From NCBI GenBank assembly GCA_018303845.1, contig JAGVXH010000004.1, positions 325,165-369,386 on the forward strand: DNA of 44,222 nucleotides, in the 5' to 3' direction. A program made the position numbers and the translations under genes. Source of the stretch: Candidatus Pacearchaeota archaeon (GTDB lineage: Archaea; Nanobdellota; Nanobdellia; Pacearchaeales; GW2011-AR1). Shown piece after piece: positions 26,196 to 44,222 of this stretch. Every line of letters begins with the position of its first letter. Positions within the stretch are counted from its first letter, which is position 1. A model generated the notes under the pieces. The model saw only the letters and a program-made list of their open reading frames with translations, ran no database searches and had not been told where the DNA came from.

Positions 26196-26485
26196 AACCT
26201 CCTCACTAACAACCTCCTCACTAACAACCTCCTCACTAACAACCTCCTCACTAACAACCTCCTCACTAACAACCTCCTCACTAACAACCTCCCCTCCTCA
26301 CTAACAACCTCCTCACTAACAACCTCCTCAACAACTTTCCCAGTAAACCCAATCTTCTCCATCCAATACGACCAAGAAAAAACCTTTTCCCAAAAACTTT
26401 TTTCAGGATTAATATTTTCTTCAATAGCAAGTCCAGAAACAAATCCACTCAACAAAAACAAAATAATAAAAATCTCAAACTTCAT
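26156..26485 (-). CDS. Signal-peptide N-terminus of the giant protein, split off by a frameshift
   Basis: Starting at ATG 26485-26483 (MKFEIFIILFLLSGFVSG), this frame codes for a clear signal peptide, then a short acidic segment with 'IGFTGKVV', a partner of the 'LTGFRITGQVV' motif in the main frame. A GGGGG run sits about 10 nt upstream of this ATG, which favours it over the ATG at 26509. VVSEE repeats begin at about residue 55. At 26286-26305 one repeat unit is 20 bp instead of 15, which moves the reading frame. Beyond that point this frame reads basic RLLVR repeats to a stop at 26156, while the acidic VVSEE register continues in the giant frame. The simplest view is that this and the 8,448-codon frame are one gene of about 8,550 codons. 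The break is either a sequencing/assembly error or real slippage. Confidence 0.75.
   Translation of the reverse strand: MKFEIFIILFLLSGFVSGLAIEENINPEKSFWEKVFSWSYWMEKIGFTGKVVEEVVSEEVVSEEGRLLVRRLLVRRLLVRRLLVRRLLVRRLLVRRLWLFLSSKFRMII
26196..26330 (-). repeat. 15-bp tandem repeat (VVSEE) with a frame-breaking unit
   Basis: The + strand unit is aacctcctcactaac. Six perfect copies run 26196-26285, an aberrant 20-bp copy follows at 26286-26305, then one perfect copy (26306-26320) and a partial copy (26321-26330). On the minus strand the unit codes for Val-Val-Ser-Glu-Glu. The aberrant copy equals two units with 10 bp (minus-strand TTGTTAGTGA) removed, which is what slipped pairing or repeat mis-assembly would leave. 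A change by whole units keeps the frame; this 10-bp loss does not. Confidence 0.95.
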
Positions 26486-26693: not shown

Positions 26694-28697
26694 TCATAAC
26701 GTAATGCCCCTTAGCCCAAACAACATCCCCAAGAAAACGCCAACGGCAACCAAAAATGCCAAAACAGCAACAGCAAGTGCTTTCGCTCCATCTTTAGAAA
26801 ACAAACCTTTAATATTAGCATTAAGTCCAATTGCAGCCATGGCAATACTCCACAAAATATCAAGTATCAATTTGAAACTATTATCGAATATCTCTAGCGC
26901 AGGAACAAAACTAAAAGTCAAGCCAGCAATTAGAAAAGCCCATAGATACCACGGAACATAAAACTTCCCTCGAATAAAACTTCCAAACATTGGAACCAAG
27001 ACCAATAAAGCAACATATCGCACAGCCTTGACAGAAAGCGCCAAACTCATCAATCCGCCCAAATCACCAAAAGTCGCAGGAAGATTCCCAATCGCCATCT
27101 TGACAAAACCAGTAAACTGCAAGAGAGAACCAGCCATTATACTATATTCAACGCCAGTCAACGCCAAGAATTTCCCAAGCAATGGAAGAAGAATAAATAA
27201 ACCAAATAATGCAGCAATAAAAACCGGAATCAAACTTTTCGAAATATCATCAGGTTCAGCGTCAACAGCTCGAGAAGAAACGGCGATAGCAGAGGCCCCA
27301 CAAACAGCAGAGCCAATGGCAACCAAATATGAAACCTTATCTTTAAGCCCAAATAAAGTAGAAAATAAAAACACTGCAATCAAATAACTAATTAGTACGG
27401 CAGAAATAATAAAAATAAAAGTAGGGTCAACCAAAACAAATTCCTTAAACTTCAAATTGACAGCCCCGTAAAAAACAACACCAATAGGAAGAAGTAACAG
27501 TGGCATAATATTAAAACCAGGGATAAAAGAATTATCAAATTTAACAAAAGATCCCAAGACTATTCCAATTACCAAAGCGACAAACAACGGATCCATGAGA
27601 GAAGAATCAGAAATATTTTTCAACAGAATGGCCAATATCCCAACAATAACAGCCAGCCCGATACCTCTCCATCCATTTCTAATGTCTCTTAACCAATTCA
27701 CCTGTCTATCTTTCTTAATCTTAGCTTTAACGCCACTCCCCCAGAAGATAATTTTTTGCGACAAGAAAATAAAGAATATCATAATAGCAGAAAGCGCAAC
27801 TAAGATAACTAAAGCCAGTTTTAAAAGTTCACTTCTTAAGAAATTAAAAGTTTCCATTTCACTAATTTCATAAATAAAACACCATTTCATCTCGGGCATA
27901 TAAACATAACTTCCCAAAACCATTACCTTGTTGTAGTTCAAATATCTCTCAATATTCCCATATATTTTTCCAGATGATTCATTGACAGCATGAGCGACAC
28001 ACAAATTAGATTGCAGTGTATCAATTTTCTCCTCAAGAACACCTCCCGAGTGTGACCTTAAAGGACTTACTAAAATAGAATTTTGATTAATAATATAGGT
28101 TTCCCCACTAACACCAAGCCCATTTCTATCAATAGTTATTTTATTAAAATCCTCCAAAGACATACTCGCAGCAAACAAACCTAAAAGCTCACCAGTTTTT
28201 TCATCAAAGATAGGATTGACTATACCCAGAGTATTTTTCTCGATGCCATATGTCGGATTATAAAATAAATCGATGAGAGTGTTGTTTTTCCCTTTTTTAT
28301 AAAATGAAAGGTTCGAATAATCAAACCCAACCAATTCCTCAGTCGTAGAAGCAATAACTTTCCCCTCGTCGTCCCACAAGTCAACCTCTAAAAAAATATC
28401 CTCATTCACAAATCTATCTAATTTATTTTGAACTTTTTCTCTTAATTCAACATCTCCAGGGGACTTAAGCAATTCAGCATATTCTGGTTCAAAGGCGAGT
28501 ATCTTTATTTTTTCTTCTTGTTCTTTAAGATAAGTAATGACATGGCTGGCTCTAGAATGCGAGATGGTTTCAATATAATTTTCAGATTGGTCAACCAAAA
28601 TACTTTGTGAACTTAAATAATAAAAATAAATTCCCCCAAAAGAACCAACAACCATAAAAGAAACAAACAATAAAAAAACTACAATTATAGGTTTCAT
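26694..28697 (-). CDS. CACHE sensor domain fused to UPF0324 (YeiH-type) transporter
   Basis: 667 residues. A first span (4-27) leads into an extracytoplasmic double-CACHE-like domain (about 30-285) with TYIINQNSILVSP and a Cys pair (Cys233, and Cys273 in KWCFIYE). A second span (291-313) and a basic linker follow. From about 343 to the end is a multi-span region matching the UPF0324/Cons_hypoth698 family of putative anion exporters: MDPLFVALVIGIVLGS, the signature IGSAVCGASAIAVSS (461-475) and a late AMAAIGLNANIKGLF. Full-length UPF0324 proteins are about 340 residues, so the transporter part looks complete. No kinase or other output domain is present. The start overlaps the previous stop by ATGA; it is the last gene of the chain. 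I infer ligand-gated export; the substrate is unknown. Confidence 0.85.
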   Translation of the reverse strand: MKPIIVVFLLFVSFMVVGSFGGIYFYYLSSQSILVDQSENYIETISHSRASHVITYLKEQEEKIKILAFEPEYAELLKSPGDVELREKVQNKLDRFVNEDIFLEVDLWDDEGKVIASTTEELVGFDYSNLSFYKKGKNNTLIDLFYNPTYGIEKNTLGIVNPIFDEKTGELLGLFAASMSLEDFNKITIDRNGLGVSGETYIINQNSILVSPLRSHSGGVLEEKIDTLQSNLCVAHAVNESSGKIYGNIERYLNYNKVMVLGSYVYMPEMKWCFIYEISEMETFNFLRSELLKLALVILVALSAIMIFFIFLSQKIIFWGSGVKAKIKKDRQVNWLRDIRNGWRGIGLAVIVGILAILLKNISDSSLMDPLFVALVIGIVLGSFVKFDNSFIPGFNIMPLLLLPIGVVFYGAVNLKFKEFVLVDPTFIFIISAVLISYLIAVFLFSTLFGLKDKVSYLVAIGSAVCGASAIAVSSRAVDAEPDDISKSLIPVFIAALFGLFILLPLLGKFLALTGVEYSIMAGSLLQFTGFVKMAIGNLPATFGDLGGLMSLALSVKAVRYVALLVLVPMFGSFIRGKFYVPWYLWAFLIAGLTFSFVPALEIFDNSFKLILDILWSIAMAAIGLNANIKGLFSKDGAKALAVAVLAFLVAVGVFLGMLFGLRGITL

Positions 28698-29821
28698 TTT
28701 TTTTGTCCTCCATTGATTAATAAAATCACAAATAACAAGACTACAATTAATAAAACTATTAGAGAAGAAAATATGGCAGATAAAATAAAATCATTTTCTA
28801 TATTCTTCATATCTTTCTTCATGCCACTAGAATGAGAAACGCTTACTAAAACCCAATAATGTTCATCCTCAGGTTTATCTCCAAAAATTTTCCTAGATCC
28901 TTGATAGATTTCAAAAGTGCCAACGGTAGGATAAATGTGTCTAAACGTAAAAACAAAATCTTCAGTCTCGATAAATCTTTTATCAAAACTTCTCAAAACT
29001 TCAAGTCCAACATCAGGATAATCAATATCAATTCTATCTTCTTCCCCAAACATAAAAGAAAATTCCTTGCTCTTATCTCGATGAGCCAAATAATATCCAT
29101 TATTATCAACTAAAAACATAAAGTCCCCATTGCGACTAGCCCTCCTAATGTCTTCTAAAAAATAATCAGCATATATATCAAAAATCAAAAATCCTTTTCT
29201 CTTCCCACCATAATCGAAAACTGGCATACCATATCTAATCACGGGAACGTATTCGGGAACTTCCTCTGTCCCGCGATTTTCCAAAATACTATTTTCGGCA
29301 TTTAAATCTATCCTAGAAATATAAATTTCATCTTTATCTAACATCATTATTTTATTAAAATAAGGCCTGTCACTCTTGTCTTGCAATTTTTCATCTTCAA
29401 CAACAAACAAAGACTTTCCATCATTTTCCACTTTAATGATTTCCATGCCATTTTCATCAATGTATCTCAAGTTATAATATGCGGGGTTAACTTCCATGAA
29501 ATTCATAAAATCTTTAGCCAGTTTTCTTTTGTCCTCTTCATCCCTCATATCCTGACTATTTAGCAAATCATGCAAACTATTTATCTTTCCAATATACAAT
29601 ATATCATTACCTTCTTGCTGCGGAAAATCATTAATATCTAGAAATACGGAGTCGACACTTTGTCCAATGGCGTCGATATTTTCTGCCCAATAATTTTTAC
29701 TAGTCATAATATAAATATTATACGAATTAAAAATTAAATATCCAAACAATAGAACAAGCAGAAAACAAATTATGAGAACCACAACTTCTTTTTTCAAATG
29801 TTTTCTTATAAGTTTTTTCAT
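28694..29821 (-). CDS. Membrane-anchored double-CACHE sensor protein without output domain
   Basis: 375 residues with spans at about 13-33 and 346-369, which leave one large extracytoplasmic domain. The stretches NLRYIDENGMEIIKVE (117-132), LQDKSDRPYF (146-155), EIYISRIDLN (165-174) and VIRYGMPVFD (194-203) are typical of the CACHE domains of bacterial sensor kinases and diguanylate cyclases. The protein ends six residues after its second span, so it cannot signal by itself. Unlike the five other CACHE proteins here it lacks the paired cysteines and belongs to a different CACHE type. It overlaps both neighbours by ATGA, with the CACHE-transporter fusion next, which may be its partner. Confidence 0.85.
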   Translation of the reverse strand: MKKLIRKHLKKEVVVLIICFLLVLLFGYLIFNSYNIYIMTSKNYWAENIDAIGQSVDSVFLDINDFPQQEGNDILYIGKINSLHDLLNSQDMRDEEDKRKLAKDFMNFMEVNPAYYNLRYIDENGMEIIKVENDGKSLFVVEDEKLQDKSDRPYFNKIMMLDKDEIYISRIDLNAENSILENRGTEEVPEYVPVIRYGMPVFDYGGKRKGFLIFDIYADYFLEDIRRASRNGDFMFLVDNNGYYLAHRDKSKEFSFMFGEEDRIDIDYPDVGLEVLRSFDKRFIETEDFVFTFRHIYPTVGTFEIYQGSRKIFGDKPEDEHYWVLVSVSHSSGMKKDMKNIENDFILSAIFSSLIVLLIVVLLFVILLINGGQKK

Positions 29822-30297
29822 TTTTTCAAAATAATGCTCACCGCCAAAAGCACACCAATTAATAGAGTTGCTCCAATAATGATTATCAAATAAATAATAA
29901 TATTATTACTGCCAGCGTTTTTCACATAAAAACTTGAGCTTACTTCTTCGCTAAAAACATCATAATCTTTAACTCTCACATTAATAATATGCAACCCATC
30001 CTTAGCACTCTCGGGAATAACAATAAAATCAATAAATGAAACTTGCGTCTCAATAGCTTTTAGTGCCTTTGCCTGTGAAACTAAATTCCCATCTTGATCT
30101 AAAATTTCATATTCCATTCTCAGGTCTTTTCTTTTGGGATTTTCAGGATATTTGATTTCAACTTCAAAATAAAATCGTTCACCAGCAACGACATCAGTGT
30201 ATTTCTCAGGGACATGAACAACTAAACTTAAGGCAGATACATTGATAAGACTAAATAATACCATAAACATTATTGCAAAACAATATCTGTTTTTCAT
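29818..30297 (-). CDS. Small secreted Ig-like protein with C-terminal anchor
   Basis: 159 residues from ATG 30297, chosen because it overlaps the preceding stop by ATGA; an ATG six codons earlier is less likely. Residues 1-23 form a signal peptide (LFSLINVSA), followed by one beta-sandwich domain with HVPEKYTDVVAGERFYFEV and AKALKAIETQVSFIDF. A span at about 134-156 ends in two lysines. It is a close paralogue of the 160-residue protein at 36694-37176, sharing VHVPEKY, RFYFE, KYPENP/RYPENP and QAKALKA. The family is not named to me. The fold and the repeated place beside binding proteins and receptors suggest an accessory or scaffold subunit. Confidence 0.8.
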   Translation of the reverse strand: MKNRYCFAIMFMVLFSLINVSALSLVVHVPEKYTDVVAGERFYFEVEIKYPENPKRKDLRMEYEILDQDGNLVSQAKALKAIETQVSFIDFIVIPESAKDGLHIINVRVKDYDVFSEEVSSSFYVKNAGSNNIIIYLIIIIGATLLIGVLLAVSIILKK

Positions 30298-31322
30298 TTT
30301 ATCAGTTTCTCCCATAATTCAGCCTTTAATTCAGTTATCTCTTTTTTTTCCTCATAATCAGAAAAATATTCTAGGAATCTTAAAGATGGACCAGAAATTT
30401 TTTCCAAAAAATCTTCGCCGAGTAGTTCCATGGCGTCCTTATTGCAACTATAACTAATCTGATATTCTGCAATAGAAGAGCTAACTTCAGGTCTCAAGAT
30501 ATAATTAATAAAAACTTCAGCAGTATATTGATTTGGAGAATTCCTAATGATAACAAAATTATCGACCCATTCCGATCCACCTTCTCTAGGAATAATATAT
30601 TTTATATTTTTATTCTCAATCATAGCTTGCCTGGCAGCTCCATCATAAGTATGCACTGCCCATAATTCTTCGGAGATTAAAAGATCTTGAATTTCTTCTA
30701 TACTCATATAGCCAACAAGCAAAGGCTTCTGGAGTAAAGCAAATTTTTCTATATCTTTAATCTGTGAAATAGTTTGAGGAACTAATGGTAATCCAATATA
30801 TCTTGCAGTCATTCCTATCACTTCGTCAGGATTATTTAAAACAGCTATTTTCCCCTTATTTCTATAGTCCCAAAGAACATCCCAGCTATCTGTATCTTCG
30901 GAAATATATTTAGTATTTATAGCCAGCCCAGTAGTACCCCAAAAATAGGGAACCGCGTAATCTTTAAATTTCTCTTTGACACATTTCGCATCTATATATT
31001 TTAGATTCGGAATATTTGATTTATCTATTTTTTCTATAAGTCCTGAATTAATCATATCTCCAATTATAACATCACTAGCAACAACTAAATCATATTTCCC
31101 CAAATTCTCTCCCAAAAGCACTTCTTCATCCTTATATGTATACAAATTAACTTTAACTCCAAATTCTTTTTCAAAATCCGCAATTGTATTTTCTCCAAAA
31201 TAATCTTCCCAATTGTAAACATTCAATTCACTAGAAAGAACATGGCTATTCTTAAAGAAAAAGAATGAAGTCGCCAGAATGAAAACGATTGCAATCCCAA
31301 CTCCGAATAAAACTTTTTTCAT
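30294..31322 (-). CDS. PotD-like polyamine-type binding protein with N-terminal anchor
   Basis: 342 residues. An N-terminal hydrophobic segment (5-23) has no lipobox Cys and no clear cleavage site, so it probably anchors the protein. The body matches the spermidine/putrescine-binding PotD/SpuD family: LNVYNWEDYF (33-42), KYDLVVASD (76-84), IPNLK, VPYFWGTTGLAINTKY (124-139), GKIAVLNNP and YIIPREGGSEWVDNFVI (242-258). Cys114 and Cys293 are also present in the paralogue at 40257-41309 and may pair. No ABC permease or ATPase is encoded nearby. The family usually binds polyamines, but the ligand here cannot be read from sequence. It overlaps both neighbours by ATGA. It may present ligand to the CACHE receptors rather than to a transporter. 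Confidence 0.9.
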   Translation of the reverse strand: MKKVLFGVGIAIVFILATSFFFFKNSHVLSSELNVYNWEDYFGENTIADFEKEFGVKVNLYTYKDEEVLLGENLGKYDLVVASDVIIGDMINSGLIEKIDKSNIPNLKYIDAKCVKEKFKDYAVPYFWGTTGLAINTKYISEDTDSWDVLWDYRNKGKIAVLNNPDEVIGMTARYIGLPLVPQTISQIKDIEKFALLQKPLLVGYMSIEEIQDLLISEELWAVHTYDGAARQAMIENKNIKYIIPREGGSEWVDNFVIIRNSPNQYTAEVFINYILRPEVSSSIAEYQISYSCNKDAMELLGEDFLEKISGPSLRFLEYFSDYEEKKEITELKAELWEKLIK

Positions 31323-31831
31323 ACATTCAATTTCTTTCGCAATTTAACTTTACTTTTTTCTGCTTTGTGTCCTGCGATTAAAAAACTAATAACTAAAAAA
31401 TAAAAAGTCATTGTGGTAAAAACTAAAGAAAAAATATTAAATATATTTAAAAAAATATTAAAATAAATTCTAGTAATTTCTATAATTAATATAGCAGAAG
31501 TTCCAAAAATAATTAGGGTCCAAAAAATATTTTTATTAATTTTATTCCAAGTCAAGATACTTTGAATTAATGTTCCTATAAGCGTCAAGCCAGCAAAAAT
31601 CGCGCTTATATTATAGATTGGCCCAGTATAAATTCCAAAATAAGCAGAATAGCCATCACTTAAGGCATAAATGCTTCCTAATAATAAAACAATTATCCAT
31701 CCTAAAATCCCCTTTTTTTCTTCTTTTTGTCGAGTAAAATATTCACTCAATAAAGTTCCAAGCAAAACTATCACTAAAATAATAGAAACAAAATAACCAG
31801 TCAAGGGGAAAAGTGCACTTAAACTATCCAT
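31319..31831 (-). CDS. Multi-span membrane protein of unknown function (5 spans)
   Basis: 170 residues, almost all hydrophobic, with about five spans (roughly 12-29, 45-62, 72-91, 102-121, 131-153) and a basic tail (KAEKSKVKLRKK). No motif I recognise. It is very AT-rich compared with the rest of the window. It overlaps the preceding small membrane protein by 8 bp and the PotD-like gene by ATGA. With the 88-residue neighbour and the multi-span tail of the 634-residue CACHE protein it may build the membrane core of the same complex. Confidence 0.75.
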   Translation of the reverse strand: MDSLSALFPLTGYFVSIILVIVLLGTLLSEYFTRQKEEKKGILGWIIVLLLGSIYALSDGYSAYFGIYTGPIYNISAIFAGLTLIGTLIQSILTWNKINKNIFWTLIIFGTSAILIIEITRIYFNIFLNIFNIFSLVFTTMTFYFLVISFLIAGHKAEKSKVKLRKKLNV

Positions 31832-32090
31832 TCAAATTCACCTTTGCAATATTTAAATAAATCCAAACCAGAATGGAAAAAATTGATAACTCAAGAATTA
31901 TCCATGTCCAAGTTAGAAAAATTCCGAGGATAAAAAGCGTTGTATAAAAAATTAAGATAACTCCTAGTATTAAGAATGGAAAAAAATCAAGAATGGTATT
32001 ATTTTTAATCATACTAAAACTACCTATCCAAATTATGACAAGCGCAAAAAATAAAAAAATCATAGAAACGATTGTAAGGCTATAATCCAT
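31824..32090 (-). CDS. Small three-span membrane protein of unknown function
   Basis: 88 residues from ATG 32090, chosen over a TTG at 32111 because GGGAGG sits 7 nt upstream of it. Three hydrophobic segments fill the protein (about 4-23, 34-55, 58-81). There is no recognisable family or conserved motif. The start lies 11 bp inside the end of the CACHE gene upstream, and the end overlaps the next membrane protein by 8 bp, so translation is probably coupled on both sides. Confidence 0.7.
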   Translation of the reverse strand: MDYSLTIVSMIFLFFALVIIWIGSFSMIKNNTILDFFPFLILGVILIFYTTLFILGIFLTWTWIILELSIFSILVWIYLNIAKVNLNG

Positions 32091-33984
32091 CTTTAATCCT
32101 CCCAAAACCAATTAATAAAAGTAAATAACCAAGAAACCCAAAAGAAACAATTGGAAGCCAAATAAATGGGTTTAAAGTAGACCCTATAGAAACTTGATAT
32201 TCCTGAAAGGGAATTTCAATTAGTCTTTCTAGCGCAATAAAAATACCTCCAAAAAAAACGAATACTCCAGCCCTTTCATTTTTTATTTTCAAAGAATAAA
32301 CTGCTAGTAAAAATCCCATAATAAAAATCATCAAATCAGGAATGTCGTCAAAAAACTTTGCATTTTGCCAACCTCGAAAAAAAGAAGTAACAATGAAAAA
32401 ATAAGAAATAGCAAAGATAGAACTCATTAGAATAAGCCAAAACAAATTCATGCGACTAATATGGCTTTTCCTCAAAAAATCTGGAAGCCTCCATGCCATT
32501 TTCTCTCTTTTTGAAATTAGCACATATTTCTTGTCAATTAAAAATCCTCCTCCCAAAATTCCCAAAATAAGAGCTATCCAAAACCAAATTTTAGATTTAA
32601 TCATATTAACTAAATCCTCCCTAAGCGGAACATTAATAATTTCTTCAACATTAACTTCTGATAATAAACACCAATTGATTTTACCAATAGGGAAGTCTAA
32701 ACCTAAAACTTCATCTCCTTTAAAATCCAAAAAGCGTGAAATATTTTCATGTTCTAAAATTTGATATTCCGAGATGTCCATGTCCATCTCTTTAGCATCC
32801 TCGAAATCGCCCAGACACTCCTCGGTACCTTCTGTAAAAATTCCTTGTGTTAGAACGCCAACATCCCTAGATGCCAATTTGGTTATCAGTAAAAACTCTT
32901 CGTTAATTAAATAAACATCTTCATTCTCCACCCCATAAATACCCTCTTCCAAAATATCATTAATCTTTCCAGTATTTTTAATTATCATAAGAGTCCCAGT
33001 AAATTTATCTTCATGATAAACTTTTGACATAATAGCAATCTGTAGATCTTTGCTTCCGATATGTCCAACGAATGGACCATAAAAACCAATTTCGCCTTTA
33101 CCCAAATTTTGGCCTTTCAAATATGCCGAGTTTAAACCTGATCTAGCAACTTCAACATTCATTCCAATTCCTTCCATAGAAATAGCCATGTAGATAATAT
33201 TCCCATCAGGAGAAAGAAATAAAACATTATGATAATCCCTCAGCCTATTAAAATCATAAAAATATTTTTCTAATTCTTTTGAAACATTTTGCACAACATT
33301 ATAATCTTCAACATATGTAGTGACCAAAGAAACCAATTCAATTCCGTCCGCAGTTTTAGTAGACAATTTACGAAATTCTCCATATTTCTCACGAATAACT
33401 CCGTCAGAATCCTCCCATAAATAAAAGCCGCTAGCACTTCCTTCTCTGTCCAAATCATCAAATATTTTTCCTAATCCAGAAAACCTTCGTCCAAGCGCTT
33501 CTATATCCGCCCCAATTATTTCAGGATTCACGTGAAGATAAAGTTCTTTATTCTCAAAATTCTGTAAAGCAGAATATCCTTTCCTACCAACCTGCTGAAC
33601 CGCAATTAGTTCGAGTTCCTTATTCTCCTTTATATCATTTATACTCATTTCGGGATGAGCCTTCATATAATTCTCAACTTCTTTAGCAACAACATCAATT
33701 TTACCAGAAACATCCAAAACAGCGGACTCTTTGCTCTCTCCAATGTTCTTATTAAAAATTTCATTAACATTATATGAATTTGCTAGAAAAAGAGAATCTT
33801 GTTCTATCTCGTAAAAAAAATCATCTAATCTCTCTCCTTTGTACAAAAGGCTACTACTCAGATAATCATCAATACTTTCTTCAAAATTCTCTTTCCTGTC
33901 TTCTGCTTCAACAACTAAAGAAATAACTATTAAAATCAAAAGGAAACTAAAAAAAACTATCCAAAAAAGATTCCGTAACTTCAT
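32080..33984 (-). CDS. Tandem-CACHE receptor with multi-span C-terminal membrane region
   Basis: 634 residues. After an N-terminal span (5-25) come two CACHE units. The first (about 30-232) has HPEMSINDIKEN (110-121), VGRKGYSAL, a WEDSDGVIREKY stretch (190-200) and TADGIELVSLVTTY. The second (about 240-445) has LFLSPDGNIIY, VYLINEEFLLI, Cys390 and Cys439 (the latter in INWCLLSE). Then come a span at 466-483, a basic loop and four more spans (about 513-533, 550-565, 573-588, 606-627). Comparable CACHE units in methanogens and bacteria sit on kinases or chemoreceptors; here the C-terminus is purely membrane. It is a paralogue of the 497-residue protein upstream, plus the extra membrane part. 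Confidence 0.85.
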   Translation of the reverse strand: MKLRNLFWIVFFSFLLILIVISLVVEAEDRKENFEESIDDYLSSSLLYKGERLDDFFYEIEQDSLFLANSYNVNEIFNKNIGESKESAVLDVSGKIDVVAKEVENYMKAHPEMSINDIKENKELELIAVQQVGRKGYSALQNFENKELYLHVNPEIIGADIEALGRRFSGLGKIFDDLDREGSASGFYLWEDSDGVIREKYGEFRKLSTKTADGIELVSLVTTYVEDYNVVQNVSKELEKYFYDFNRLRDYHNVLFLSPDGNIIYMAISMEGIGMNVEVARSGLNSAYLKGQNLGKGEIGFYGPFVGHIGSKDLQIAIMSKVYHEDKFTGTLMIIKNTGKINDILEEGIYGVENEDVYLINEEFLLITKLASRDVGVLTQGIFTEGTEECLGDFEDAKEMDMDISEYQILEHENISRFLDFKGDEVLGLDFPIGKINWCLLSEVNVEEIINVPLREDLVNMIKSKIWFWIALILGILGGGFLIDKKYVLISKREKMAWRLPDFLRKSHISRMNLFWLILMSSIFAISYFFIVTSFFRGWQNAKFFDDIPDLMIFIMGFLLAVYSLKIKNERAGVFVFFGGIFIALERLIEIPFQEYQVSIGSTLNPFIWLPIVSFGFLGYLLLLIGFGRIKDGL

Positions 33985-35474
33985 TTTTTTACGCCCTTCC
34001 TTTCTATTTTATATAAATTATCTAAAATAAATGCAACTAATATTCCAACAAAAAAAACACTCAAAATAATAATAGCCAAAACTATATTTATGCGGTTAAC
34101 ATCTTCTTCAAAATCACTCTTACTCATCTCGGTAATTACGCACCAGCCAGATCCAAGAATGTAAGAGTGTGCCCCCAAAACTTCTTCTCCAGCATAATTA
34201 AGTCCATCGCCAAATTTAGAGACCTTATCGACACGTTCTCCCTTTAGCGAAGCATAATAATTATCATAATCTCTAAAACAACTTTCTATTCTTTCAGAAG
34301 TAATAGCATAATGAATTTGCCCACTTTTTTCAATCACATCAGTTTTTAATGAAGTAACATGGTCTCTATATTGATTAACAACATAAACTTCTCCCTTTTC
34401 TCCCAGTCCAACATCGCTCGTAATCAAGTCAGAAATTTTATCGCTACTCAATTCTAGGGCAAGAACCCCAATAAGTTTATTTTTTCCGCTTACGACATCT
34501 GTATCTACAACGGGCACAGTAATAAAAAGGCTTAACTCTTCGCTCTCACTATATCTTCCAAAATAACCAATTTCAATTTCTAAATTATCTCTAGCCTCTC
34601 GAAACATATTAGCTAATAAACTTGCATTATAGCGCCCATCTTGGAGATTGGTCCCTAGTTCATCATGCCTCTCAGCAGTCCAAACAACATCTCCCTCAGG
34701 ACTAATCAAAATCAAATCTGAATAACCTTTAAATTTTTGGAATGATCTAAATTCTATATCTAAATTTTCAGCCAAAATCATCGTATCTCCAAATTCATCC
34801 AAATAAGTATTTGCATTAGAGGTAAGCCCAATTCCGTCCGCAGTTCTTTCTTCCACTATAGCAAAATGAGTATATTTTTTTCTAATAACTCCATCTGTAT
34901 CTTCCCAATCATAAAATCCATATGAAGGTTCACCATTTATGGTTCCATTAAAAATCCTATAAATATCAGGATAATCATTAACCCAGGTTTCATTCGTAAG
35001 TCCAATAAATTGAGGGAATGGATGCAAGACAATAGTTTGATTTCTATAATCACTAAAAACAGTATATCCAGTTTTCCCAACGGGTCTTAGCGCAATTCGT
35101 CTAAATTCTTCACTCTCTTGCAGGTCTTTAAGAGTCATGTCGGGATGGGCGGCAATATAATCTCCAACATCATTAGCAGTTTCCTCAGAAATTTCCTTTA
35201 TCTTTTTAGAAATAATTCCAGCATCTTGAGCCAACTTACTGCCAAAGGCCCTTTTTACATCCTTAGACTCTGCTAAAAATTCTGCATCATTTTTACGATT
35301 TTCTAAAAAATCCGCAACCCTTTCAGACTTGGAGTCAGCAACATTAATTAGTTGTTTATACGCTTGATCCTTAAAAAAATTATCTTCTACGGAAACATTA
35401 TAAATCACAAAAGCAATTCCAGTAAAGATTAAAAGAATAATGCTAGTCCAAAAAAATAAACTAAAAATTCTCAT
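33981..35474 (-). CDS. Tandem-CACHE receptor protein without output domain
   Basis: 497 residues with spans at 5-25 and about 462-485; everything between is extracytoplasmic. The first CACHE unit has HPDMTLKDLQES (110-121), RPVGKTGYTVF (130-140), WEDTDGVIRKKY (190-201) and TADGIGLTSNANTYLDEF. The second has YSDLILISPEGDVVWT (251-266), ELGTNLQDGRY, LIGVLALEL and GEVYVVNQ, a layout typical of chemoreceptor dCACHE domains, with Cys399 and Cys445 (GSGWCVITE). The protein stops 12 residues after the second span (basic YKIERKGVKK), with no HAMP, kinase or methyl-accepting region. It overlaps the LivJ-type binding protein gene and the 634-residue receptor gene by ATGA. Confidence 0.88.
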   Translation of the reverse strand: MRIFSLFFWTSIILLIFTGIAFVIYNVSVEDNFFKDQAYKQLINVADSKSERVADFLENRKNDAEFLAESKDVKRAFGSKLAQDAGIISKKIKEISEETANDVGDYIAAHPDMTLKDLQESEEFRRIALRPVGKTGYTVFSDYRNQTIVLHPFPQFIGLTNETWVNDYPDIYRIFNGTINGEPSYGFYDWEDTDGVIRKKYTHFAIVEERTADGIGLTSNANTYLDEFGDTMILAENLDIEFRSFQKFKGYSDLILISPEGDVVWTAERHDELGTNLQDGRYNASLLANMFREARDNLEIEIGYFGRYSESEELSLFITVPVVDTDVVSGKNKLIGVLALELSSDKISDLITSDVGLGEKGEVYVVNQYRDHVTSLKTDVIEKSGQIHYAITSERIESCFRDYDNYYASLKGERVDKVSKFGDGLNYAGEEVLGAHSYILGSGWCVITEMSKSDFEEDVNRINIVLAIIILSVFFVGILVAFILDNLYKIERKGVKK

Positions 35475-36697
35475 CTACTCCTCCCCCCCAATTCAAACGT
35501 CTCGAAAACTCCGTTCTTGCTAAGCCGAGAATAGTAAACCCCATCCAAACCCTGATGATCTCTCTCTCCATATCCAAGTTTCGTCCCAACCCCAATATCA
35601 AAATCATGCATAGACTCCAAAGCGTCAACAAACCTTTCCCTAGTTAATTCGGTTCCAGCAATTCTTAACGCTTCAACTAAAACTTTCGCATTGACAAAAC
35701 CCTCAAGTGCAACATAATTAGGCTCGTCACCGGGATAATATTTTTTAGACAAATCAATATACTCCCTGACACTAGGAAATTCTTTAGAGAAAGGAGACGG
35801 AACAACTTGCGTAACAATTATCTTTTCATATTCCGATTCATTAATGCCTTGAGACTGTATGAGTTCATCAGCAAAAGCCTCTGAACCAACAAATGAGACA
35901 GTATGAAAATATGGTTTAAATCCTTCATTATTAGAAATCTTAACAAACTTTGCTAGAGGGCTATACGTCCCAACCATCACGACAGCCTGAGCTTCACTTT
36001 CCCTAATAGTTTTCGCAGCACCGCTTATGTCCATACCCCCCCTTTCATATGTAGCACTGGCAACAGGGTCCAGCCCTCTCCTAGTAAGTGCCAATTTTGT
36101 TCCAGTCAAAACAGTCTGACCAAAGGCATCGTTCTGATAAAAAACAGCAATTTTACTAAAGCCAAGTTCGTCAACAAAATAACTAATTGCGGCTTCAGTT
36201 TCGCTATAATAAGAATCTCTGACATTGAAAATATACGGCCTAATCGGACTTCTCAAAGTCTCAGCTCCAGTAAAAAGACCTAGTAAGGGAACTTCCGCGA
36301 CATCAACAATATCAATTATCCTAACAGAAGTAGGAGTTCCGACATAATCAAACAAAGCAAAAACCCCATCCTCTCCGATTAGTTTCTGTGTATTTTCAAC
36401 AGTCTTTTCAGGATCATACTCATCATCATAAGCAATCAGTCTAATCTTCCTCCCATTCACTCCACCATTTTCATTAACTTCATTAATATAAGCCAAAGAA
36501 CCTCGCACGGTCTGGCTTCCAAGAAAACTCGCATATCCCCCAAGTGCAGACGAAGAGCCAATAAGAATTTCATCATCGCTTACCCCGGGAGCTTCAGCGA
36601 CTACCTTCTTCTCACGACTTCCAATATACCAAAAAACGCCAGAGAATAAAGAAAGCAACAATATCCCAGTTATAATAAAAATAACAGTTTTTTTCAT
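35471..36697 (-). CDS. LivJ-type (type 1 periplasmic) ligand-binding protein, membrane anchored
   Basis: 408 residues. The N-terminal hydrophobic segment (4-26) has no lipobox Cys and probably anchors the protein. From residue 40 the body matches the branched-chain amino acid/amide-type binding family (Peripla_BP_6): DDEILIGSSSALGGYASFLG, NENGGVNGRKIRLIAYDD, EKTVENTQKLI, KIAVFYQNDAFGQ, and late YVALEGFVNAKVLVEALRIAG. Length and motif order are normal for the family, so it is probably functional. No LivH/M/G/F transporter genes accompany it. It overlaps a small Ig-like protein gene upstream and a tandem-CACHE receptor gene downstream by ATGA, so it may hand ligand to that receptor. The ligand is unknown. 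Confidence 0.9.
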   Translation of the reverse strand: MKKTVIFIITGILLLSLFSGVFWYIGSREKKVVAEAPGVSDDEILIGSSSALGGYASFLGSQTVRGSLAYINEVNENGGVNGRKIRLIAYDDEYDPEKTVENTQKLIGEDGVFALFDYVGTPTSVRIIDIVDVAEVPLLGLFTGAETLRSPIRPYIFNVRDSYYSETEAAISYFVDELGFSKIAVFYQNDAFGQTVLTGTKLALTRRGLDPVASATYERGGMDISGAAKTIRESEAQAVVMVGTYSPLAKFVKISNNEGFKPYFHTVSFVGSEAFADELIQSQGINESEYEKIIVTQVVPSPFSKEFPSVREYIDLSKKYYPGDEPNYVALEGFVNAKVLVEALRIAGTELTRERFVDALESMHDFDIGVGTKLGYGERDHQGLDGVYYSRLSKNGVFETFELGGRSR

Positions 36698-37176
36698 TTT
36701 ACCCCCCTAAACAAAATCACAATAATCGCAATCATCAAAAAGAAAACAGCCAGAGCAAGAAGATAGATATAAGTGAAAAGCATATCAACTCTATTCTTAG
36801 TAACATAAAAACTAGAACCAACTTTCTCGCTTAAATCCCCATAGTCTTTAACATAAACATTAATTTCATATTTTCCATAATCCATTTTTTCAGGCAGGAC
36901 AACAAAATCAAGAAATGATGCTTGCGTTTCAACAGCCTTTAGCGCCTTAGCCTGTGTAACAACTTCTCCTCCGTCATCAACAACCTCATACTCCAATCTC
37001 AAATCAACTCGAGTAGGGTTCTCAGGATACCTAATAGCCAGTTCAAAATAAAAGCGGTCTCCAGCATTGACCTCATTATATTTTTCCGGGACATGCACCG
37101 TGGCGCTTAAAGCAGAAACATTAATCAGACTAAATATCGCAAAAAGAGCCATAATTAATAAAATTTCAATTTTCAT
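36694..37176 (-). CDS. Small secreted Ig-like protein with C-terminal anchor (paralogue)
   Basis: 160 residues. It has a signal peptide (1-23, IFSLINVSA), one beta domain (ATVHVPEKYNEVNAG, RFYFELAIRYPENP, QAKALKAVETQASFLDF) and a span at about 133-155. It is a clear paralogue of the protein at 29818-30297, matching over nearly its whole length. The start lies 11 bp inside the end of the preceding gene and the end overlaps the LivJ-type gene by ATGA. The two paralogues flank the binding-protein/receptor block, which suggests a duplicated module. Family name not known to me. Confidence 0.8.
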   Translation of the reverse strand: MKIEILLIMALFAIFSLINVSALSATVHVPEKYNEVNAGDRFYFELAIRYPENPTRVDLRLEYEVVDDGGEVVTQAKALKAVETQASFLDFVVLPEKMDYGKYEINVYVKDYGDLSEKVGSSFYVTKNRVDMLFTYIYLLALAVFFLMIAIIVILFRGVK

Positions 37177-37666
37177 TGCACCTCCTATTTAAAAAATAAA
37201 CTACAATCAAAGTGAGCGCAACCAGAGCAATTCCACCTAAGACCCGAAATAAAAACTGTTTATCATAGCCAAGAACTTCAAAATCTCCTCTAAATTCATC
37301 ACGAACATCAACATTGTAAACGGTCTGAAAAATAAAATAATATTTCCCAGGAGGCAAATTTAATCCTCTAAAGTGTTTGCTTTGAATTTCTTCAACTTCA
37401 ACTTCAACACTTCCTTCTTCTCGATAAAGTTCTAAACCATCTTCACTATAAATAGTATACAATAAATCAACTGTAGTGGGGACTCTTCCAAAATTTTCAT
37501 AAATAGCAATTGTGGTCAAATCATCAGAATATGTTATGGAAGCATCTTCAATACTAAATCTAATATCAAAAAGTTTTTCAGGAACACTCTCGGTAATAGT
37601 ATTAGCCGCGCAAACAAAAGATATAATTATAACCCCTAATATTAACAAAATTAAATTATTTTTCAT
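37166..37666 (-). CDS. Small secreted Ig/CARDB-like protein with C-terminal anchor
   Basis: 166 residues. It has a signal peptide (1-20, ending near VCA), a beta domain of about 110 residues (DIRFSIEDASITYSDDLTTI, LPPGKYYFIFQTVY) and a span at about 139-159. It has the same layout as the 160- and 159-residue paralogues, but the sequence is different enough that common origin is only likely. It lies between a CACHE receptor gene (ATGA overlap) and the 160-residue gene (11-bp overlap). Confidence 0.75.
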   Translation of the reverse strand: MKNNLILLILGVIIISFVCAANTITESVPEKLFDIRFSIEDASITYSDDLTTIAIYENFGRVPTTVDLLYTIYSEDGLELYREEGSVEVEVEEIQSKHFRGLNLPPGKYYFIFQTVYNVDVRDEFRGDFEVLGYDKQFLFRVLGGIALVALTLIVVYFLNRRCNEN

Positions 37667-38970
37667 TTACCCTTTCTGCCTCCAATTTTTTTATTAAAAT
37701 AAAATCCAAGTCCAAACAAAGCTAAATTAAACAAAATAATAAAATAAACATCCAGCTTTATCTTCCCCTTTTTCGGCAAATCAAAAACTTCTTTCGAACC
37801 AACTTCCGATATCAAACACCAATTAGACTTATCAATATAAGCATAAGTCCCAATCACCTCATCTCCATTAGCCCCATAAGTATGACTAATTATTTCTGAA
37901 AAATCCAAGGCAGAATTTTTCTTTGCAAAACATTTTTCACCATTAGCATTAAAAATAGTTTTCACCATCTCGCCCTCACCATCCAAGGAACTGATTAAAA
38001 CGCCTTCACTATTAATTAAGTAAGACTTCCCAGAATTCCCAATATCGCCTTTTTCCATTACAATATCGTTAAGAAAATCCATCTCACTAAACAATATAGC
38101 TACATCATTATTTTGAGTTAAAGTAGCGAAAGCCAAAACCATATCAAATCCATCTACGCTTTCCCTCATGTAAGGGCCATAAATAACACTCGCTTTCTCA
38201 TTTTTAACCAAAGAATAAATTTTCCCAGAATCACTTTGTAAATTAGAAGCAAATTCGAGTCCCCTTCCCATTTCAATTCCAGAACTATAAACAACAAATC
38301 CTTCACTGTCAATCAAAACCAAGTCCTCATATCCACCCATTTCCTTAAATCTTTCTAAAAATACCGACCTCTTATCAATAATTCTAAACTCATCCTCATA
38401 AATAATATAACCAATCCCCAGACTGGCCCCATCTCCACTTTTCACTCCAATATCCTTAACATAAGAGTTCCCCCCAGCAGAAACCTCGCTAAAACTCTTC
38501 CCAACGTTGCCGTCCAAATAATCAAGCACAACTATGCCAGAATCAGAGTTTACGAGCAAAGTCCTACTTCTTTTCCCCATGTTTTGAGAAACTATTTTTC
38601 TAAAATCCGCATCGTCCCGCAATTCTTCCAAGGTCATATCCGGATATTTATTTATAAAAATCTTAATCTGTCCAGAAATGCTTTCCAGTTTTAGCCTCAT
38701 ATTATCCTCTACAACTTCACCATAACCAGCCCTCACACTAAGCAATTCGTTAACCTCATTAGTCTCAGCAACAAATTCAACGTCAGCCATCCTTTCTAAA
38801 AAATAATCATTAATCCGCTCTCCTTTTATCTGAACACTGCTAACCAATTGTCTTTCAACCTGAGAATTAAAATCCTTATCCTCAAAATAAAAAAGACTTC
38901 CAATCTGAGCAACCGAAACAACAAAAAGCATAATAACTAAGGATAATAAAAAAGCAACTTTTAACTGCAT
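37663..38970 (-). CDS. Diverged tandem-CACHE receptor protein without output domain
   Basis: 435 residues from ATG 38970. That start lies 10 bp inside the preceding gene and begins a normal signal-anchor; an ATG at 39000 would add ten polar residues. Spans are at about 5-24 and 407-425. The first CACHE unit is degenerate: PDMTLEELRDDADFRKIVSQ is kept (110-129), but the following GKTGY-type strand reads GKRSRTLLV. The second has YEDLVLIDSEGFVVYSS, SYLINSEGVLISS, Cys347 and Cys385 (SNWCLISE). It ends ten residues after the second span. A relative of the 497- and 634-residue receptors, with a shorter spacing between the two cysteines. Confidence 0.85.
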   Translation of the reverse strand: MQLKVAFLLSLVIMLFVVSVAQIGSLFYFEDKDFNSQVERQLVSSVQIKGERINDYFLERMADVEFVAETNEVNELLSVRAGYGEVVEDNMRLKLESISGQIKIFINKYPDMTLEELRDDADFRKIVSQNMGKRSRTLLVNSDSGIVVLDYLDGNVGKSFSEVSAGGNSYVKDIGVKSGDGASLGIGYIIYEDEFRIIDKRSVFLERFKEMGGYEDLVLIDSEGFVVYSSGIEMGRGLEFASNLQSDSGKIYSLVKNEKASVIYGPYMRESVDGFDMVLAFATLTQNNDVAILFSEMDFLNDIVMEKGDIGNSGKSYLINSEGVLISSLDGEGEMVKTIFNANGEKCFAKKNSALDFSEIISHTYGANGDEVIGTYAYIDKSNWCLISEVGSKEVFDLPKKGKIKLDVYFIILFNLALFGLGFYFNKKIGGRKGK

Positions 38971-39854
38971 TCCAATTCCTCCTTTTCCACCAAGACACAC
39001 CAGCCAGTTCTTAAGATATAGTCATGCGCACCGAAAACTTTCTCCCCAGAATATCCATCATAAATCCCACTCTTTCCAATCAAATTAACCTTCTGCCCAC
39101 TTCTCTCGAAATAATAATTCTGATAATTCTTAAAACAGTCCTTCACCATCACAGTCTCAACCTTCACAATCTGCCTACCATCTTCACCGATAAGCTCACT
39201 GATTGGAGTTGCATCTTTATTTACCAGATAAATCTTACCGCCCTCAAGTCCAACATCGCTAACAACTCTTCCCTCAATTTCCTTATTATCAATTTGTAAC
39301 GCCACAATCCCCAACATATCCATTTTCCCCATAACGCTCTCGGATTCAACCAAAACAGGGCTAGTCACAAAAACCGAAAGCTTTTCGCCCTCATTAAAAT
39401 ATCCAGGATCAAAAATTCCCACACCAAAATCATTTTGCACTTTATCGAAAACCCTTCCCAGCTCAGAATCAATACCACCCAAATTGGTCCCAATAATGCC
39501 CTTATTAGAAGAACTCCACAAAACAGAACCATCAATATCAATCAAAATCAAGTCCAAATAACCGTTAACTTTTCTAAACGATTCCAGTTCCTTAGCCAGT
39601 TCAGAGTCAACAGCCCCAGCCTCAAAAGAACTAGTTACCTTATCTAGCCCAACCAAAAACTCCAAATCAACCTTCCTTTCATCCAAAAAAGTGCCAATCC
39701 TTTCCGCCTTAGAAGAAGCTACAGAAGCCAGATGTTTTTCTACCTGAACCTCAAGCGCCCCATTTCCACTCAAATTAGAAAAAATTACAAATCCAACCCA
39801 ACTTAACAAAAAAATTCCAATTATTCCCCATGCAGACAATTGTTTTTTATTCAT
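38961..39854 (-). CDS. Short single-unit CACHE protein lacking the second membrane span
   Basis: 297 residues from ATG 39854, chosen because it begins the signal-anchor (MNKKQLSAWGIIG...) and lies one base after the preceding stop; the longer frame to 39980 would overlap the regulator gene. After the N-terminal span (9-26) and a helical segment comes one CACHE unit like the second unit of the 497-residue receptor: YLDLILIDIDGSVLWSS, GTNLGG, MLGIVALQI, KIYLVNKDATPIS, Cys240 and Cys286 (RTGWCVLVE). The frame ends 10 residues after that motif, where its relatives have a second span. It may be held only by its N-terminus, with the sensor domain free outside. Confidence 0.83.
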   Translation of the reverse strand: MNKKQLSAWGIIGIFLLSWVGFVIFSNLSGNGALEVQVEKHLASVASSKAERIGTFLDERKVDLEFLVGLDKVTSSFEAGAVDSELAKELESFRKVNGYLDLILIDIDGSVLWSSSNKGIIGTNLGGIDSELGRVFDKVQNDFGVGIFDPGYFNEGEKLSVFVTSPVLVESESVMGKMDMLGIVALQIDNKEIEGRVVSDVGLEGGKIYLVNKDATPISELIGEDGRQIVKVETVMVKDCFKNYQNYYFERSGQKVNLIGKSGIYDGYSGEKVFGAHDYILRTGWCVLVEKEELECS

Positions 39855-39855
39855 C

Positions 39856-40047
39856 TTATTGAACTTCAGCCGAATAAATTTTAGCCATTCCAATTTTCCG
39901 AAAGCCAACTTTCTCTGCTCCCTCAAGCCGAGCAAGCAAAATCCGAACGACCGATCTAGGCAGGCGAGACATTGAAACAATTTCCGTAATTGTTCTGCCA
40001 GTGTTTCCAGAGCTTTTAACTATCTCGAAAACTTTCTCATCTTCCAT
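39856..40047 (-). CDS. Small winged-helix DNA-binding regulator
   Basis: 63 residues from ATG 40047, chosen because a strong GGAGGTGG lies 8 nt upstream; in-frame ATGs at 40065, 40077 and 40104 are possible but lack this. The pattern EDEKVFEIVKSSGNTGRTITEIVSMS, SRLPRSVVRILLARLEGAEKV and a final hairpin RKIGMAKIYSA is a typical archaeal winged helix (helix-turn-helix plus wing). It is the first gene of the 14-gene chain and its stop lies one base before the next start. It is the only protein of the chain predicted to act in the cytoplasm, so a local regulator of this operon is the natural reading. No ligand domain is present. Confidence 0.8.
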   Translation of the reverse strand: MEDEKVFEIVKSSGNTGRTITEIVSMSRLPRSVVRILLARLEGAEKVGFRKIGMAKIYSAEVQ

Positions 40048-40256: not shown

Positions 40257-41309
40257 TTAATTTTTACCCGAAATGAGCTTCTCCCACAGCTCTTTTTCTA
40301 ATTCTGCAACCTCTTCACTTGTCTCATAATCGGAAAAATATTCTAAAAATTTTAAGGACTGTGGAGAAACTTCTTCCATAAATTCATCCCCCAATAAATC
40401 CATTGCCTTGGCATTACAACTATAAGATATCTGATATTCTGCAATTTTTGCGCTTACTTCTGTGTCTAAAATATAATTAATAAAAACTTCAGCGGTATAT
40501 TTCTTTTTAGAACTTTTTAAAATCACAAAGTTTTCAATCCACTCAGAACCGCCCTCTCTGGGAATAATATATTTAATATTGGGATTTTCAAGTGTAGCCA
40601 TTTTCGCAGCACCATCATACATTTGCGCAGCCCATAACTCTTCAGAAATCAAATCATCTCGCATATCCAAATATTCAAAATAACCTTTAACTAGGGGTTT
40701 CTGTATCAAGAGAAATTTTTCAACTTTCTTAAAATCTGAAACACTCTGAGGAATTACGGGTAAACCAATATATCTTGAGGCCATAGCAACAACTTCTTCA
40801 GGATTATTCAAAAGACCAATCTTCCCGGCATATTTTTCATCCCATAAAACGCCCCAACTATCTGTATCCTCAGGAACATATTTGGTATTTATCGCAAGCC
40901 CAGTAGTCCCCCAAAGATAAGGTGCCAGATATTTTTCAAAACCCTCCATAACACATTTTTCATCAACATTCTTCAAATTAGGAATATTTCTTTTATCTAA
41001 GGGAGCTAGCAAATCCCGCTCAACCATTTCTTTTATTATCGGGTCACCAGCTACTACCAAATCATATTTATTAGGATTCTTCTCCAGTTCAGCCAAAACA
41101 ACAGATTCATCCTCAAAATATACCTCATTCACCTTAACCCCAAACTCTGCCTCAAAATCTTCCAAAACTCCTTCTGCCAAATAATCTTCCCAATTATATA
41201 AAGTCAGTTCATCTGCAAGTTCTTGTTCTGGCTTGAAAACAAAAAACATCCCCCCTAAAATCCCAATCATCAATATTAATATACCAGAATAAATCAACAT
41301 TTTTTTCAT
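40257..41309 (-). CDS. Second PotD-like binding protein with N-terminal anchor
   Basis: 350 residues from ATG 41309 (an upstream TTG at 41330 gives no better start). The hydrophobic N-terminus (4-25) lacks a lipobox Cys, so it is probably an anchor. PotD/SpuD family motifs: LTLYNWEDYL, KYDLVVAGDP, IPNLKNVDEKC, APYLWGTTGLAINTKY, GKIGLLNNPEEVV and YIIPREGGSEWIENFVI. It is very similar to the PotD-like protein at 30294-31322, including both cysteines. It stands alone, about 210 bp upstream of the receptor chain and on the same strand, again with no transporter genes. The two may be alternative ligand-capture subunits of one system, or supply a transporter encoded elsewhere. Confidence 0.9.
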   Translation of the reverse strand: MKKMLIYSGILILMIGILGGMFFVFKPEQELADELTLYNWEDYLAEGVLEDFEAEFGVKVNEVYFEDESVVLAELEKNPNKYDLVVAGDPIIKEMVERDLLAPLDKRNIPNLKNVDEKCVMEGFEKYLAPYLWGTTGLAINTKYVPEDTDSWGVLWDEKYAGKIGLLNNPEEVVAMASRYIGLPVIPQSVSDFKKVEKFLLIQKPLVKGYFEYLDMRDDLISEELWAAQMYDGAAKMATLENPNIKYIIPREGGSEWIENFVILKSSKKKYTAEVFINYILDTEVSAKIAEYQISYSCNAKAMDLLGDEFMEEVSPQSLKFLEYFSDYETSEEVAELEKELWEKLISGKN

Positions 41310-43924: not shown

Positions 43925-44222
43925 CGAAACAAAAAGACTCTACATTACTTTAGCAATTGTTTTAGGAATTCTAGCAATATTCATCCTCTACTCTGCAGTC
44001 CCCTACATGTTCGGAAAAGAAATAATCCTACAAACAAAACCAATAGACCCATTCCATCCACTTCTCGGGCAATACATGAACGTCGGCTACGAAATAAGCG
44101 AGATAGAAAACAGCGACCTCGATGTAACTCAAGGAGACATGGTTTACATATCATTAAAAAAAGACAGCGAAGGAATATCCAGATTTGAATCAATCTCAAA
44201 AAACAAACCAGCTAGCGGAGAC
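43905..44222 (+). CDS. GDYXXLXY-type membrane-anchored protein (partial)
   Basis: 106 codons are visible, open to the window edge. After a basic start (MKKRKNNETKRLY) comes one span (about 13-33), then IILQTKPIDPFHPLLGQYMNVGYEIS, which fits the GDYXXLXY protein family (the defining motif reads GQYMNVGY here, so Asp is replaced by Gln and Leu by Val). Proteins of this family are commonly encoded next to DUF2157 proteins, as here, where the start lies 20 bp inside the upstream gene. Function of the pair is not established. Confidence 0.8.
   Translation, partial: MKKRKNNETKRLYITLAIVLGILAIFILYSAVPYMFGKEIILQTKPIDPFHPLLGQYMNVGYEISEIENSDLDVTQGDMVYISLKKDSEGISRFESISKNKPASGD

Follow-up and report, generated by a model that had tools for sequence, protein, structure and literature searches.

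The window, a 44,222-nucleotide stretch from the genome of a Candidatus Pacearchaeota archaeon (assembly GCA_018303845.1), carries on its minus strand a chain of 14 open reading frames (ORFs), g1 to g14 (window 40047-26694), which, judged from sequence comparison, probably encodes the external and membrane-bound portion of a modular split receptor, the signal of which would go to a soluble two-component cassette. The assembled genome measures 1.09 Mb (10 contigs, 80% complete); the end of its contig 2 coincides with the end of the window at 44222, where the view of the upstream locus stops. Relatives are designated as genomes (G numbers) or sequence stretches (L numbers), with L022 and L024 denoting the organism's own contigs 5 and 4. 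L075/L105, L082/L103 and L085/L108 are each the same record and were counted once.

The chain is tightly packed (Table 1). With the best start codons, 12 of its 13 junctions are overlaps of 4, 8, 10 or 11 nt and the remaining one, between the winged-helix gene and g2, is a 1-nt gap; a preliminary description of the window, which had 13 of 14 overlapping, was right if genes are counted but not for junctions. Elsewhere, in ~81 kb of the same genome, the longest same-strand run of overlapping or abutting genes comprises four genes, in a comparison made with longest-ORF starts, a choice favouring overlaps. Pfam matches and hydropathy bear out the parts listed in that description, namely a winged-helix regulator, six dCache proteins, one LivJ-type and one PotD-type solute-binding protein, three Ig-like proteins and two multi-span proteins. 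The list omitted a second PotD-type protein (g0) and the separate membrane domain, here called tA, that ends g8. Among the six dCache calls, those of g2, g3, g8 and g13 lie under the dCache_1 cut-off (E 1e-8 to 1e-10) and that of g14 was made by homology.

None of the six CACHE proteins has an output domain in Pfam, and the cytoplasmic tails of those with two transmembrane (TM) segments measure only 7-15 residues. The operon was first described as apparently self-contained, with its output absent. Homologous clusters indicate otherwise. The cluster in G023 opens with a large Ig protein and a second Ig protein; next come a soluble PAS-type kinase, a receiver, DUF835 and one more Ig protein, and homologues of g7 and g8 lie no more than 260 nt beyond. 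In G072, the soluble PAS-kinase gene of such a cassette is overlapped by a CACHE gene that lacks an output. The compact arrangement of histidine kinase (HK), receiver (REC), DUF835 and Ig proteins is found in the organism's own genome (G000, contig 5) as well as in G007, G023, G030 (twice) and G072, and G008 has a DUF835-Ig pair. DUF835 is a response-regulator output domain in archaea (PMC5847659). The anchored Ig-like protein of the cassette is a member of the operon's Ig family, and the DUF835-linked Ig proteins of the own genome and G023 group together at 100/97 in the Ig tree. The preliminary description had advised looking for unlinked kinases, and the own genome indeed has them, in the cassette on contig 5 (4-10 kb), unlinked to the operon, and as a dCache-HK on contig 4 (72 kb). 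Because the cassette kinases are soluble (G000, G023 and G072) and the receptors are nearly devoid of a cytoplasmic part, the simplest account is that the two are complementary halves of one system. In further support, G210 has a g14-related CACHE joined to HAMP-HisKA-HATPase. Of the earlier reading, the surface sensing complex of co-conserved genes thus stands, whereas its output-less, self-contained nature does not. That reading had named kinase or ABC partners beside homologous clusters, or a lack of co-conservation, as evidence against itself; such evidence was found in part, in the kinase cassettes of G023 (beside g7 and g8 homologues) and G072 (overlapped by a CACHE gene), whereas the genes are co-conserved and no ABC partner was found.

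The part of the operon that is best kept among relatives is the membrane core, which consists of tA, tB (g9), tC (g10) and an anchored Ig-like protein (g12). Searching with a profile built from the Ig family (A1) gave 23 loci in archaeal and bacterial metagenome-assembled genomes (MAGs). The order tA-tB-tC-Ig is retained in 12 further clusters (L070-L074, L080 (twice), L081 and L086-L089), where the genes mostly overlap by 4-20 nt; the sequence of L073 stops before the Ig gene, with the other three in order. The conserved core is made up of four translationally coupled modules and occurs in Nanoarchaeota-type archaea and Patescibacteria. Its parts are joined in different ways. tA lies behind a CACHE domain in g8 and is a gene of its own in L086-L089; PotD follows tC in one chain in L071, L072 and L073, representing three genomes (G023, G006 and that of L072); a g8-type CACHE is fused to an Ig protein in G023 (L069:8504-10492); and a CACHE protein related to the N-terminal part of g14 follows the core in L086, L087, L089 and L090. 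Since tC::PotD, g8N::Ig and g8N::tA are natural fusions, the modules presumably meet in one complex.

The membrane proteins of the core match no known family, with tB compared by single-sequence Pfam search only, and they appear undescribed as far as the libraries searched show. AlphaFold predicts tA with four membrane helices (pLDDT 90) and tC at a pLDDT of 87. Foldseek found no fold match to either model in the PDB at E<0.001, and sequence searches of the PDB with tA and tC gave nothing significant. Partial alignments of tC with rhodopsin/GPCR-like proteins (E 0.25-0.45) and of tA with V-ATPase-like proteins (E about 0.1) were dismissed, and hhalign detected no homology of tA to tC or tB. 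The 7TMR-DISM profile PF07695 matches 5 of 27 tA/tC members at E <= 1 (best 8e-4), which is weak, and g10 scores below the cut-off.

Taken together, the parts suggest the following mechanism, in which we infer the physical assembly, the ligand classes and the flow of signal to the kinase. The dCache domains and the tethered orphan binding proteins of PotD and LivJ type would recognize small molecules outside the cell and dock on the core formed by tA (four helices), tB (three), tC (five) and the anchored Ig-like protein. As no receptor has a cytoplasmic output, the signal would pass sideways within the membrane, and its most likely reader would be the soluble cassette of PAS-histidine kinase, receiver and DUF835 (KaiC-like) protein, which in this organism is on contig 5.

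Several observations weigh against this mechanism. The tie between the operon and the contig-5 kinases draws on a common Ig family and on adjacency in relatives. The own receiver (L022:3849-4100) has a clean 36-residue deletion that includes the phospho-Asp region; its remainder is highly conserved and the receivers of G023 and L075 are intact, and the deletion may be an assembly error. The own DUF835 matches lie under the Pfam cut-off. In favour of a kinase reader, HisKA domains are more frequent where the Ig matches of a genome are strong (6/11 versus 23/175, Fisher p = 0.002), but the test is rough, with a bit-score cut chosen after looking and phylogeny ignored. No clear kinase was found in G006, G110, G058, G002 or the genomes of L070, L078, L083 and L087, in which HATPase is unmatched, weakly matched or matched in frames of gyrase-B size. 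G110 (88% complete, five contigs) is the clearest of these cases. Some of these genomes have a divergent Ig type (L086-L090), which is not the case for G006 and L070. Because several genomes with the core or its Ig protein have no clear kinase, the kinase is not the sole possible or universal reader.

Cores in genomes without kinases would also suit a surface capture or adhesion platform, in which molecules of a host or of the environment would be bound by CACHE, solute-binding and Ig domains, with tA-tC-Ig serving to anchor and organize large surface proteins. The core often adjoins surface-type proteins of 984-1937 residues (L080, L081, L083 and L089), and the operon's own neighbour is a surface-type ORF of 8448 residues. 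However, CACHE domains and solute-binding proteins are families of small-molecule binders and not adhesins, a class relative (G210) has a g14-related CACHE fused to HAMP-HisKA-HATPase, and the Ig family is tied to the HK-REC-DUF835 cassettes. We therefore regard the platform as unlikely.

The split receptor would be served by binding proteins whose type differs from cluster to cluster. Six orphan families were found: PotD, LivJ, ABC_sub_bind (L069, L070), NMT1 (L077), and Peripla_BP_4 together with SBP_bac_3 (L079). The best alignments of the PotD-type g11 are to polyamine-binding proteins in the PDB, and its YNWxDY and WxDN motifs are kept; its ligand would be a polyamine, and that of g6 an amino acid, by class only. 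As the preliminary description supposed, no ABC importer accompanies them. The BPD_transp_1 profile, which matched 14 of 14 controls, found no permease in the own genome at its 80% completeness, where BPD_transp_2 was not searched. The ABC ATPases there, typed by size and neighbours, look like ABCE1, UvrA, a half-exporter and a MacB-type unit accompanied by FtsX-like permeases, besides partial matches of SMC/Rad50 type. No importer genes were recognized among 816 ORFs of the cluster neighbourhoods, whose ATPases are exporter-like or ABCE/F-like. Delivery to an ABC transporter was therefore rejected, as no importer permease or importer-type ATPase was found. So was coupling of the CACHE proteins to chemoreceptors, also doubted earlier, since MCPsignal was not found in the own genome (a profile that matches 7 of 14 controls).

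Binding proteins left without an ABC importer could instead belong to a new binding-protein-dependent transporter, with PotD on tC and tA-tB-tC as a permease in the manner of tripartite ATP-independent periplasmic (TRAP) transporters or tripartite tricarboxylate transporters (TTT), in which the CACHE proteins would have a regulatory role and UPF0324 would be another carrier. The tC::PotD fusion in three genomes and the helix total of tA-tB-tC (4+3+5 = 12) would fit. Against it, the core quartet occurs without any recognized binding protein in L074, L080 and L086-L089, tC has no invariant residue, none of the three alignments has a conserved buried charged pattern, and tA and tC match no permease in Pfam or the PDB. 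Such a transporter seems improbable.

A further possibility is that the output is g14 itself, as the preliminary description suggested. It would then be a sensor-gated exporter of anions, for which the remaining genes present ligands as accessories. g14 is one reading frame without interruption and its UPF0324 domain is clear, and a YeiH protein is reported to be linked to sulfite resistance in Salmonella (PMC12880088). Yet in a class sample of 378 genomes, the own included, no other genome carries the CACHE-UPF0324 fusion, UPF0324 is matched in only one other and there without the CACHE part, and homologous clusters have the CACHE protein alone. The fusion, seen in this genome alone, looks like local variation and not the output of the system, and g14 in that role is very improbable.

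Among described systems, the operon is best read, by analogy, as working like an orphan-binding-protein receptor of the NspS-MbaA kind that feeds a two-component system. In NspS-MbaA (Vibrio cholerae, Sinorhizobium), a PotD-type protein serves a membrane receptor and not a transporter (PMC8079147, PMC9993111), and the operon's PotD (by Pfam and PDB matches) likewise has no cognate ABC transporter in this 80% complete genome. The NspS-MbaA receptor, however, has a GGDEF/EAL output in its own chain, whereas the operon's receptors have none and their likely output is a separate soluble kinase; the operon also mixes several types of binding protein with CACHE proteins, and relatives join PotD to a new membrane protein. 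The soluble PAS-rich kinase, the CheY-like receiver and DUF835 also occur in archaeal two-component systems that combine soluble PAS/GAF kinases with REC/DUF835 outputs (PMC5847659), but here REC and DUF835 are encoded separately, in a cassette of fixed composition that includes an anchored Ig-like protein, and the sensory domains are separate membrane proteins. dCache histidine kinases and chemoreceptors use the same sensor family, and a class relative has a dCache-HAMP-HK (L100), but all six operon proteins lack the cytoplasmic half and no methyl-accepting chemotaxis protein was found in the genome. TRAP and TTT systems resemble the core in combining a binding protein with small multi-span membrane proteins, but there is no sequence or fold match (tB by single-sequence Pfam only), and here the binding protein is dispensable and changes type. 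Because its receptor chains lack the outputs that define such families, the operon receptor falls into none of the receptor families described so far.

We found no paper on this cluster or on split receptors of DPANN archaea in the open-licence PMC literature. Finished Nanoarchaeota genomes were reported to be without two-component systems, and dCache in archaeal kinases to be almost confined to Methanomicrobia (PMC5847659). Here, a genome of 1.1 Mb sets aside at least 14 genes for a receptor whose ligand binders are interchangeable. If true, this reading shows how cells able to import little sense many solutes and provides a testable role for three unnamed membrane families.

The core is also present in bacteria of the Candidate Phyla Radiation (CPR). 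L074, L076, L080 and L084 derive from MAGs labelled Patescibacteria, Moraniibacteriota and Shapirobacteria, with the full core in L074 and L080. All four genomes contain penicillin-binding transpeptidases, and the L084 stretch itself also holds PBP2-like and MraY genes. In the Ig tree, the CPR label changes at least twice on well-supported branches (the bootstrap is not fully settled), and the patescibacterial L084:9935-10432 pairs with the woesearchaeal L082:10001-10504 at 98/94. With peptidoglycan genes near the bacterial copy, this pairing is a probable cross-domain transfer. The split-receptor reading, if right, points to an exchange of sensory equipment between DPANN archaea and CPR bacteria. 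More tentatively, tA-tB-tC-Ig might be an undescribed receptor core of ultra-small archaea (Nanoarchaeota) and bacteria (Patescibacteria) that has changed domain more than once, as in the Ig tree, and takes interchangeable CACHE proteins and orphan binders to read the surroundings or partner cells. On the Shapirobacteria contig (L080:1147-15105), two tandem [CACHE-tA]-tB-tC-Ig copies lie between surface-type proteins of 984 and 1531 residues.

Table 1. Features of the locus, with positions in the window
Feature	Position	Strand	Match or relatives
g0, second PotD-type solute-binding protein	40257..41309	-	upstream of the winged-helix gene
g1, small winged-helix protein, 63 aa from this start	39856..40047	-	Pfam below cut-off
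g2, N-anchored dCache protein, 297 aa, without C-terminal TM	38961..39854	-	orthologues 58-60% in L077, L079
g3, two-TM dCache receptor, 435 aa, 11-aa tail past last TM	37663..38970	-	Pfam
g4, anchored Ig-like protein, 166 aa	37166..37666	-	48% orthologue in L079
g5, anchored Ig-like protein, family adjoining HK-REC-DUF835	36694..37176	-	
g6, LivJ-type solute-binding protein, 408 aa, N-anchored	35471..36697	-	Peripla_BP_6 3e-61; PDB 4kv7 1e-51
g7, two-TM dCache receptor, 497 aa	33981..35474	-	45% orthologue in G023
g8 N-part, dCache receptor, residues ~1-490	32500..33984	-	fused to Ig protein in G023
tA, 4-helix membrane domain, C terminus of g8 (residues ~490-634)	32080..32499	-	
tB (g9), 3-helix membrane protein, 88 aa	31824..32090	-	
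tC (g10), 5-helix membrane protein, 170 aa	31319..31831	-	
g11, PotD-type (polyamine-class) solute-binding protein, N-anchored	30294..31322	-	SBP_bac_8 1e-17
g12, anchored Ig-like protein, last of core quartet	29818..30297	-	
g13, two-TM dCache / HK_sensor_dom_bact receptor, 375 aa, 7-aa tail	28694..29821	-	PF21623 6e-22
g14, dCache receptor fused to UPF0324/YeiH-type multi-span protein, 667 aa	26694..28697	-	PF03601 5e-36

The remaining genes of the chain have relatives of their own. Those of g1 are 47-60% identical, with common TITxxV and GMAKxY motifs, and such a winged helix-turn-helix (wHTH) gene stands at the head of similar surface clusters in G006 (two), G023, L072 and L082 and also within the kinase cluster of G030. 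Orthologues of g3 (35-43%) lie downstream of g2 in L077, with one gene between, and in L079; the g4 domain is also present in large surface proteins; and g13 has orthologues in L068, L070, L074 and L077. g0 is separated from the wHTH gene by 152-209 nt, depending on the wHTH start chosen, and the two are also neighbours in this order in L077; g0 looks like part of the same locus.

Further genes of note were seen in the own genome. On contig 5, two membrane proteins of 235 and 123 residues follow the DUF835 genes (L022:313-1381); they have no Pfam match, and hhalign found no homology between them and tA or tC. A second sensory island on contig 4 (L024:4727-11689), its proteins named by eye and BLAST and not all by Pfam, encodes a 1097-residue dCache-type kinase, two hemerythrin-like proteins, an output-less CACHE-HAMP-like protein, a KaiC-like ATPase and a DUF835-like protein. 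An echo of this island occurs in G411 (L098:473-3560), where a pair of small membrane proteins comes before a CACHE-HAMP protein and before a 133-residue protein that resembles, by eye, the contig-4 hemerythrin-like protein.

On the other side of the operon, the 8448-residue ORF (window 849-26195, minus strand) ends in a HerA/DUF87-like ATPase domain of ~335 residues (Pfam 5e-12), so that a giant repetitive outside part is apparently tied to a P-loop motor. A 15-bp tandem repeat of ~9 copies, one unit irregular (window 26194-26330), sets a likely signal peptide (ORF 26509-26156) apart from this frame by a frameshift, which may be a phase-variable switch or an assembly error.

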